NCBI RefSeq assembly: GCF_963678975.1
Contig: NC_089281.1
Location: forward strand, 8,581,277 to 8,645,276
Source of the DNA: Dysidea avara
Taxonomy: Eukaryota; Porifera; Demospongiae; Dictyoceratida; Dysideidae
DNA: 64,000 nucleotides
Direction of reading: 5' to 3'
Shown here: positions 15,106 through 25,406 of the stretch, piece after piece
Position numbering within the stretch: position 1 is the stretch's first letter
Layout of the letters: every line of letters begins with the position of its first letter
The notes under the pieces: model-generated
Database searches by the model: none
Seen by the model: the letters and a program-made list of their open reading frames with translations, nothing else
Told to the model about the DNA's origin: nothing
Made by a program: the position numbers and the translations under genes

Positions 15106-17290
15106 TCAGCCCATCAGAGACTTTTTGATCTCTGATGCCATTGTCATAAATACTTGTTCAACATTTGTATCATCTTTTGCACTAGCTTCTAAAAATGGTA
15201 TCTGAACTTGATCTGCATATTCCTAAGGTATAAAATATAGCAATACAAGTGTACTTTATTTGTAATTTGCCAATTGACAATAAAGACACATGGTAGTTTG
15301 TCATACAGCCAAAAAGCTGGTGTATATTTACAGGAAGAAAATGCAATTTTCATGCATATGTAGTTCCATGCTCCCTTTTCCAAATGGAGTAATTTTTATA
15401 TCATCCACCTTCAGCACTCCACATACAGTGGTCCCTCCATCTATCTGGCCATTGATTATCTGATGTTTTTGCTATTCGAACTGTGGAAGTGACTATTCTA
15501 TTAGAGTGTTTTGCACCTAACATGTATGTTCTATTAGAGTATTTTAACTGAGCTCTGTACCTAAATGTATGGACTTTTTTATTCAAAATTTTCCATTATC
15601 CAAGCATACCTGGGGCCCAAGATAATAGAGGGACCACTGTACCACAAGCAAGATCACTTTATGAGATTTATCTTCTTTTCCTTTGCACACCACAAGGAGA
15701 AAGAAAACCAATCAGTGGTGTAGAATCTTGGGGTCAAAATCATAGGTGTAGCAACCGGGAGGGAATTCTCCACTCTTATTTTAGAAGGGGCTTAGCCCCT
15801 CCACTTTTAAATATCGAAGTATTCTAATAGAGTAGTCAGACACTTTAATAGAATAGTCAGATACTCTAATAGAGCAGTCATGTACTAAATAAAACAAAGT
15901 TTAGTAATCTCAAAAGGCTAAAAAAATTCCTGTGGGGGCATGCACCCAGATCCCCCTAGAAAGCGCATGTTCCACATAATGAGTGAACTTTACACATTGT
16001 AAAAATTGTATTAACCAGTCACCACAGCTCCTCACTAAAATTTTTTTTGCTATACCTCTAGTAAAAATACCGTAATAGAACAGTCATCAAAGTGCATGTC
16101 CAGGATTATAACCATGAACCAATCTCCACTGTTGTCAGTTCATCAGTCCACTTAATTTCTACCTTTATCTACATAAATAAAAATTCTCTACTCATTTGTA
16201 ATTTCATAGATCTACCTATGGAGAATGATTTTTCTATGTGTGTTCTACTAGAACTCCGTGAAAAATTGTACACTCGTTAAGACAGTCAACAGTACAAAAC
16301 TATTCTTCTATGATCATTGTATCTACATTATATAGATAAGACGAAAATTGGGTACAAACTGCCAGTTTATGACTGACAATAATGAAGTGACATACATGCA
16401 AAACAGCCAAGCTGTAAACAAAAAAATCCTGAGTGAAAGGTTTTGAAATCAAAAGTGGCAGCCAAGAAATGATTGCAATATGGTAATAAATTTTAGTAAT
16501 GGCTGAATGCATTATTACTTGATTTCACAATGTTTTCCACCTAAGCTTTTCACCCTTTTTACAGCTTGGCTGTTTTTTTTTGCTTGTGTATACTTAACTG
16601 CTTACTTTAGCTGTTTCAAAGTTGACAACTTTCCTATCAACCAAGTCACACTTGTTACCAACCAGTAGTTTTCTCACATTTGTGCTAGCAAATCTATCTA
16701 TTTCCTGAAGCCAACGGTTTACATTAGTAAAGGACTCCTAGCAACAATGTTAGATATGATACAAAGTGAACAGATCTCACTTGATCTGTGACATCATACA
16801 CGATAATAATCCCGTGTGCACCTCTGTAGTAACTGGATGTGATTGTCCTAAACCTTTCCTGTCCTGCTGTATCCCACTGCGTGTTATACAAATTACAGCA
16901 CCACATGTACAGTGTACACTTACAATTTGCAGCTTTGCGGTCGCTCCATCCAAATTTATTGTGCGAATTTTCTAAACATAACAGTTGTACATAGTTCAGA
17001 AAGGATTATAGAACCACAGTTGACTTACAAAGTCTACACCTATTGTACTGATATAACTTTGTGAGAATGCATCATCCTAATAGGGTTGTTATTTTGATGA
17101 TAGCAAGTGCAAGTAGCAATATGTTTCCACTCACTGAAAATCGCTGCAGCAAACATGACTTGCCCACTCCACCATCTCCGATCAATAAAATTTTAAATAG
17201 GTAATCACTAAATGTAGAACAAAAATAAACAGATGTTCTACTGTTTGTAGTATTAAAGTAAAACCTCTCATCACAGTAAGGAGTGGACAT
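15106..17290 (-). CDS. RabB1: Rab1-like small GTPase lacking the C-terminal tail
   Basis: The exons are 17265-17290 (tentative first exon, MSTPYCDE), 17135-17207, 17029-17076, 16924-16971, 16781-16876, 16606-16737 and 15106-15222. All join in phase and give about 179 aa. G1 is GDGGVGKS, G2 is STIGVDF, G3 is [10 protein letters not shown]4 is NKCD and G5 is SAK, so every nucleotide-binding motif is intact. The family is Rab1/Rab8-like by the [20 protein letters not shown] block. The protein ends EIKKSLMG at a stop, about 30 residues short of ordinary Rab1. There is no hypervariable tail and no CC/CXC prenylation motif. No good donor follows that would restore one. The 5' exon is uncertain. The acidic exon at 19085-19246 could be spliced on instead in the correct phase. 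The expected role is a GTP switch in membrane traffic, but membrane anchoring is not explained. Confidence 0.82.
15426..15639. mobile_element. MITE with CAGTGGTCCCTC ends
   Basis: The inverted termini are CAGTGGTCCCTCCAT... and ...ATAGAGGGACCACTG, flanked by TA on both sides. This fits a Tc1/mariner or pogo-type non-autonomous element. It lies in the last intron of RabB1. The duplicated copy in unit 2 is at 29462-29660. Confidence 0.88.
16390..16590. mobile_element. Degraded foldback relative of 7833-8164
   Basis: Ends read AAAACAGCCAAGCTGTAAA and TTTACAGCTTGGCTGTTTT with a diverged interior. It sits in the last intron of RabB1. Confidence 0.7.
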
Positions 17291-17420
17291 GCAACAGACA
17301 AATGGAGGAAGTGCAGAGAAGTCGTGTCTGAAACTTCATTCTATACTTGCTGAGTCCAGAATTGTCTTGAAACATATAGATATATATTGAGACACTCACA
17401 AAGCAAGCACAGTATTATCT

Positions 17421-25000: not shown

Positions 25001-25406
25001 GCAGAGTCACTCTGTCTAGCTGTATGGTAGATATCACCACCCACTTTGACAATCCCATGCACTGTGATTTAAATTTGCTAACAGGTGATTGTAAACAAAA
25101 CCACTGTGCATCAACAAGGAAGGGTAAAGTACTTACAATTTGTAACTTAACAGTTTTCCCATCAAGATTTATTGTTCGTACTTTCTGCAAACACATACCA
25201 AAAAAGAATCTAATAAGGAAATCAGCAATTCATTCACTCACAAAGTCTACTCCAATGGTACAAATATAACTTGCTGCATATTCATCATCCTATATGTAAA
25301 AATTAATAATATCTGAGTGTCACTATAACTCACAGCAAATCGTAGTAGTAAGCAGGTCTTCCCCACACATTCATCACCAACCATTAAAAGTTTATATACA
25401 TCGTCA
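19081..25406 (-). CDS. RabA1: Rab1-like small GTPase with an acidic C-terminal exon
   Basis: Exons in phase are 25334-25406, 25242-25289, 25137-25184, 21649-21744, 21464-21595, 21291-21412 and an acidic exon 19085-19246 (stop at 19081 if unspliced). A tiny first exon (ATGTG before GTGAAT, near 25470) is possible but unproven. G1 is GDECVGKT, G2 is CTIGVDF, G3 is [10 protein letters not shown]4 is NKCE instead of the usual NKCD, and G5 is SAK. Intron 4 is 3.4 kb and full of transposons. Exon 7 can stop by read-through ([14 protein letters not shown]) or splice from ATGAG to the acidic exon, adding about 55 residues rich in E, Q, S, N and D and without cysteine. That exon ends in a strong donor (CATG/GTAAGT), so it may continue into RabB1. 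The assignment to the Rab family is firm. The 5' and 3' ends are not. Confidence 0.78.
20027..20062. repeat. (CAGA)n microsatellite
   Basis: There are tandem GACA/CAGA units with one CAGG variant. The duplicate in unit 2 is at about 32773-32805. Confidence 0.9.
22776..23028. mobile_element. pogo/Tc1-like MITE with CAGTGGATCCTC ends
   Basis: Inverted termini CAGTGGATCCTCGCTTATCC and GATAACTGAGGATCCACTG are flanked by TA. It has short internal repeats of TTATCCGAAC. A half element with the same end occurs at about 22089. Both lie in intron 4 of RabA1. Confidence 0.88.
23119..23196 (-). repeat. tRNA-derived SINE head
   Basis: On the minus strand an A-box-like TGGTACAGTGGTAAGACACC and a B-box-like GGTTCACTTCC are spaced as in tRNA genes. 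The acceptor stem does not pair well and no CCA-adjacent structure is clear, so this is a SINE or tRNA pseudogene. Confidence 0.55.
23480..23935. mobile_element. MITE with GGGTGGATCCAGGA ends
   Basis: Ends CAGGGGTGGATCCAGGA and TCCTGGATCCGCCATTG are inverted around about 450 bp that includes a GGGGGGCATTTGCCCC hairpin. Relatives lie at 37461-37768 and at the right edge of the window (from 63854). Confidence 0.7.

Follow-up and report, generated by a model that had tools for sequence, protein, structure and literature searches.

On the minus strand of a 64-kb window (the whole stretch of Dysidea avara DNA that was analysed), an acidic exon of 162 nt lies between two Rab1-like genes, RabA1 and RabB1. 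This exon (19246-19085) is probably a genuine coding exon, and we tentatively read it as an alternative N-terminal exon of RabB1, a reading to which we give a probability of roughly 0.35. The strong donor at 19085 would splice onto RabB1 exon 2 at 17207, and RabB1 would gain an alternative disordered acidic N-terminal extension of ~30 to 60 residues before its single Rab1-like G domain. Translation would start from an ATG inside the exon (19179) or from an upstream mini-exon such as 20016-20003. The short form of RabB1 would start from 17290, and RabA1 would be a separate gene with its own short tail end. We infer the use of the donor at 19085, its partner at 17207, and a transcription start between RabA1 and the acidic exon.

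A sequence-only reading of this DNA had proposed that the exon links RabA1 and RabB1 into one protein with two Rab G domains. What stands of this proposal is a coding exon that looks genuine, has a strong donor, and matches the phase of both its neighbours. Its upstream partner may not be RabA1, because the RabA1 donor at 21291 is ordinary and the mini-exon reaches the acidic exon in phase. The dual-Rab fusion is possible but is not the best reading. Below the favoured reading we rank an acidic tail of RabA1, the fusion, an internal exon of RabA1, and a relic, in this order; the odds behind the five readings are judgements and not computed values.

Rab1-like genes and their tandem duplicate

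Exon models and their translation give three intact Rab1-like genes on the minus strand: RabC (41605-40799), RabA1 (25460-21291), and RabB1 (17290-15106). Along this strand RabA1 is followed by the acidic exon and then by RabB1. RabA1 has seven coding exons (25460-25456, 25406-25334, 25289-25242, 25184-25137, 21744-21649, 21595-21464, and 21412-21291), as does RabB1 (17290-17265, 17207-17135, 17076-17029, 16971-16924, 16876-16781, 16737-16606, and 15222-15106). All three genes strongly match Pfam Ras (5.9e-67 for RabB1 and 1.1e-63 for RabA1, the latter with the acidic tail included in the query). With RabB1 alone as the query, chains of Rab-1A and Rab-1B top the list of solved structures, and Rab-1A chains are matched with 297.9 bits over residues 7-176, far above Rab-8A (220). 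Pairwise identity is 72% between RabA1 and RabB1, 64% between RabB1 and RabC, and 58% between RabA1 and RabC.

Judged by similarity, these genes have the Ras-type G domain, closest to that of Rab1, of the Rab1 subfamily. Unlike Rab1 (Rab-1A/Ypt1), however, the models extend no further than the G domain or a short stretch after it and lack a C-terminal tail with prenylatable cysteines. RabB1 ends in EIKKSLMG and RabC in EIKRSQ followed by a stop. RabA1 ends in an acidic tail or, with its last donor (21291) unused, in a short tail of its own, into which the frame continues. No terminal double cysteine is found in any of the three intact models. We call the genes 'Rab1-like' because there may be a further last exon with cysteines. 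A tandem array of Rab1-like genes that lack prenylation cysteines is in itself mildly curious. The G1-G5 motifs of RabB1, RabA1, and RabC were compared by eye against the usual motifs. By this comparison, G4 of RabA1 reads NKCE instead of NKCD, and RabC has WDSGGQE.

In database searches RabB1 matches one locus in viral contigs and 25 loci in genome contigs, all of them in viral or prokaryote-labelled records, and no related animal locus was recognised among these 26. In one viral-contig record (L001:5001-6354), two matches to the RabB1 G domain lie ~465 nt apart on one strand and in different frames, which may be either one or two genes.

A tandem duplication covers the segment between a point just downstream of RabC and the end of RabB. 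Unit 2, its upstream copy, contains RabA2 and RabB2, both pseudogenes on the minus strand. RabA2 (36356-33796) retains the ATG of its first exon but has lost the donor GT; its exon 4 contains an in-frame TGA, and indels break the frame in exon 5 (8 and 1 nt) and exon 6 (4 nt). RabB2 (31293-29156) has frame-breaking indels in exon 5 (1 nt) and exon 6 (10 nt), and a 2-nt indel in exon 1 that breaks the frame only when the first intron is spliced. Non-exon parts of the two units are ~87-94% identical. Between RabA1 and RabA2, by comparison, exon 6 differs by 1 substitution and exon 7 by none. This near-identity (21595-21291 against 34104-33796) looks as if it came from recent gene conversion, although RabA2 is dead.

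Unit 2 also carries a copy of the acidic exon (31987-31820, minus strand), which is open and is followed by the same GTAAGT donor, as the sequence-only reading had observed. The observation carries little weight because RabA2 and RabB2 are pseudogenes, and unit 2 was rejected as independent support for the fusion since both are broken. There is also a ~400-nt inverted repeat (18333-18729 against 13800-14203, 89% identity). Its stretch 18333-18729 seems to belong to an insertion that separates the acidic exon from RabB1 and is missing from unit 2.

Other features are present in the window. Three F-box-like ORFs lie on the plus strand (11870-12646, 50916-52859, and 61515-63518; Pfam F-box-like in 3/3), and these regions share stretches of DNA similarity. 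A homocysteine S-methyltransferase-like ORF (49721-50509, plus strand) matches Pfam with 5.1e-24. Internally repetitive stretches are found at 6087-7509 and 47970-48687, the latter containing inverted and direct copies that we read as NSIA-type repeats. The open plus-strand frame 41716-42080 includes the reading LLSVSSSESGTWLGALPVPSLGTKLDNESLRIALGLRLSV and may resemble retroelement proteins. Two polar minus-strand ORFs above RabC (42076 and 41892) were considered as Rab N-terminal exons and rejected, an open plus-strand frame lying opposite.

The acidic exon and its splice sites

The acidic exon lies between TTTAAATAG and GTAAGT, and its 162 nt are open. It is entered and left in phase 2 and encodes S (split codon), 53 residues, and C, or W and a stop if the exon is terminal. 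Of its 53 full codons, 12 encode D or E and only 3 a hydrophobic residue (FILVMYWC). Stop-free stretches of this length were compared over both strands, and of the 8029 overlapping windows only those at the acidic exon and its unit-2 copy have as few as 3 hydrophobics. With overlaps set aside, the next lowest are a His-Thr repeat (6) and two further windows (8 each). When the 11.4-kb region was simulated with a first-order Markov model, in three frames of one strand, 3 or fewer hydrophobics were reached in 0/400 cases (minimum 10). Such a coding-like composition is unlikely to be due to chance. It starts approximately at the acceptor of the exon, and the ORF continues upstream with other residues. 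The 22 codons preceding the in-exon ATG at 19179 have no hydrophobic residue, which is rare (70 of 35350 windows, at four places). An antisense artefact was rejected as the origin of the ORF, because no frame of the opposite strand is free of stops.

The two copies of the acidic exon differ at 13 DNA alignment positions and by two 3-nt indels. There are 12 replacement and 1 silent codon differences, and identity is 92% in the exon against 89% in the surrounding non-exon sequence, so that the amino acids of the exon are not visibly conserved. Both of the indels within the exon are 3 nt long, compared with 5/27 in the flanking alignment. In the favoured reading the exon is fast-evolving. In tblastn of the 64-kb window, the acidic peptide matches only the two gaps between RabA and RabB, the remaining matches having E of 1.2 or worse, and no copy was found near RabC. 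None of the 31 loci examined in the database search matches the peptide at E 1 or better. A 17-base pattern of the exon occurs in five viral contigs and was taken as chance: four match these 17 bases alone, and the fifth matches 29 bases at 90% with no match to the peptide.

Splice sites were scored with matrices trained on 17 donors and 17 acceptors from the RabA1, RabB1, and RabC models. Since the training exons are paralogous, scores were redone on intron positions alone. The acidic donor at 19085 scores 10.2, where the best of the 17 Rab donors, each left out in turn, scores 10.0. It ranks in the top 0.3% of 3923 GT sites, and in the top 1% on intron positions alone. GTRAGT occurs ten times on the minus strand of 25456-15106. 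Seven of these sites are modelled Rab donors, and the others are at 23727, 19085, and 17400. With 19085 set aside, seven of nine such sites are thus Rab donors, so that 19085 itself is probably used. The longer GGTAAGT is found only 6 times on the minus strand, against 3935 stop trinucleotides. Two of the six are the acidic donor and its copy, and another two are the RabA1 exon-6 donor with its own copy, which leaves two other sites. The remark in the sequence-only reading that a terminal acidic exon would oddly take its stop (TGG TAA) from the donor itself is therefore fair.

The acceptor of the acidic exon is less distinctive. It has 8/13 pyrimidines, the 17 real acceptors ranging from 6 to 11, and its weight-matrix score is equalled by 39% of AG sites. 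The acceptor at 17207, where RabB1 exon 2 begins T-GAT-TAC in the required phase, is the strongest of those listed downstream of the acidic donor, its score being inflated by its inclusion in the training set. Note that the second exons of RabA1, RabB1, and RabC all start in phase 2. Any phase-2 upstream exon would fit, and one exon in three would by chance match RabB1 as the acidic exon does.

At the upstream junction, RabA1 exon 7 ends in ATGAG at 21291, with both coordinate and phase as first reported, and is followed by GTGTGA. This donor agrees with 2/4 intron consensus positions, a level reached by 44% of all GT sites. Its full-matrix score of 6.7 is within the range of real donors and is reached by 3.9% of GT sites; on intron positions alone it scores 4.6, reached by 11%.

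Candidate partners of the acidic exon

RabB1 has its own first exon (17290-17265, minus strand) with an ATG at 17290 and the reading MSTPYCDES. From this ATG the G domain is in frame whether the 57-nt first intron is spliced or retained. In RabA1 and RabC the corresponding first exons are 5 nt long and are followed by introns of 49 and 45 nt, respectively. Having its own in-frame ATG, RabB1 needs no upstream donor. However, none of the other 17 modelled donors is as weak as that of its first exon, GTTTTA, and unit 2 has the same six letters, which favours a second 5' exon and leaves room for the acidic one.

The spacing of the two units also points to RabB. In unit 2 the acidic donor is ~0.53 kb from the start of RabB2, compared with 1.8 kb from the end of RabA2 to the acidic exon. 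The extra distance in unit 1 coincides with 18722 to 17421, where the units no longer align. A candidate mini start exon at 20016-20003 (minus strand) reads ATGAATAAATACAG followed by GTAAAT, and has an identical copy at 32760 in unit 2. It enters the acidic exon in the same phase and does not need RabA1. Together with the composition beyond chance, a donor in the best class of the locus, the fitting phase and strength of the 17207 acceptor, and indels in multiples of a codon between the copies, these observations argue for the acidic exon as an N-terminal exon of RabB1.

Several observations do not sit easily with an N-terminal exon of RabB1. If translation starts at 19179, the hydrophobic-free 22 codons before this ATG are left unexplained. 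The gap between RabA1 and the acidic exon offers several candidate exons with an ATG; the mini-exon is one of them and is weak alone. Counting consensus positions (3/4 against 2/4) had suggested that its donor is superior to that of RabA1, but this was rejected: the full matrix gives 6.2 against 6.7, and intron positions alone give 4.8 (reached by 10% of GT sites) against 4.6. As the two donors are about equal, an acidic RabB1 could be built without RabA1 with splice quality neither lost nor gained. The acidic acceptor is unremarkable by matrix, its pyrimidines being in the real range, and the 12 replacement differences against 1 silent give no sign of purifying selection. In addition, an AATAAA ~60 nt past the acidic exon in unit 1 would rather suit a terminal exon.

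That AATAAA leads to the next reading in rank, to which we give distinctly lower but still appreciable odds. RabA1 would have an acidic C-terminal tail: 21291 would join 19246, and translation would stop at TGG TAA in a terminal exon that may be composite, its donor being used only part of the time. The product, a Rab1-like protein of 229 residues, would have a disordered acidic tail and would lack a prenylation cysteine. The phase fits, the frame is open, the 21291 donor is in the real range on the full matrix and the acidic acceptor is so on the intron side, and no gene fusion is required. On the other hand, the stop would sit in a perfect GTAAGT, and 4/6 GGTAAGT sites are the acidic donor, the RabA1 exon-6 donor, and their copies. 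The AATAAA is not retained in unit 2, which is itself a dead copy.

If 21291/19246 and 19085/17207 were both used, the two genes would be joined, either as a single fused gene or by read-through splicing of tandem genes. RabA1 and RabB1 are consecutive genes on the same strand with an in-phase donor and acceptor at both junctions. With the acidic exon between them, the frame stays open for 399 residues and encodes two G domains separated by an acidic linker, the arrangement that the sequence-only reading had proposed. The second junction has a strong donor and acceptor, the 21291 donor equals that of the mini-exon, and the fusion would account for a polar exon that starts at its acceptor and ends in a strong donor. 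Splicing between tandem genes is known, according to PMC2174484. We nevertheless consider the fusion unlikely. RabB1 has its own start, the RabA1 donor is ordinary, other starts are available for the acidic exon, and a working fusion is impossible from unit 2. No Rab-Rab protein was found in a literature search that covered open-licence papers. Marginally less probable still is that the locus makes, from a single gene or by regular read-through, a tandem Rab switch: two Rab1-like G domains, one of them with NKCE, joined by an acidic disordered linker in a protein that is soluble and unprenylated.

A little below these in our ranking, and doubtful, is an acidic exon internal to RabA1, its donor joined to a further exon within 19085-17290 that perhaps encodes a membrane anchor. 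Such an arrangement would account for both the strong donor and the missing prenylation tail of RabA1. From an acceptor at 18964 a short tail is open in both units, ending in HTCI (unit 1) or HTCV (unit 2), but this acceptor scores -2.4 and neither ending is a double-cysteine motif. A related candidate at 18994 is out of frame in unit 2. Among the listed gap acceptors (score of at least 3), the longest non-Rab frame has 27 codons and none of the frames ends in a double cysteine. Least probable is a relic that is spliced no longer in either unit: 12 replacement and 1 silent differences and 92% against 89% identity would fit near-neutral divergence, but each copy retains the open frame, the polar composition, and the perfect donor, and neither indel shifts the frame.

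Comparison with known systems

Rab44 and Rab45 resemble an acidic RabB1 in having a Rab G domain plus an N-terminal addition. According to PMC3425129, the additions are EF hands and the proteins are placed among Rab8 duplications. At this locus, by contrast, the addition is short and acidic without an EF-hand-type domain, and the G domain is Rab1-like. Miro GTPases also have two small GTPase domains per protein (PMC9510121). Their domains flank EF hands, whereas the hypothetical product here would have two Rab1-like domains and an acidic linker. Another possible likeness is to transcription-induced chimeras, which arise from consecutive same-strand genes with joinable exons; PMC2174484 puts the splicing between tandem genes at ~5% of the human transcriptome.

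Were the fusion true, the sponge would have a tandem-Rab protein of a kind that was not found in print among open-licence papers, and with a pair of linked switches that lack a membrane anchor, the dependence of Rab function on prenylation could be probed. A more modest reading is the likelier one: a Rab1-like gene that may have an alternative acidic N terminus, within what would be a young tandem array of cysteine-less Rab1 copies.
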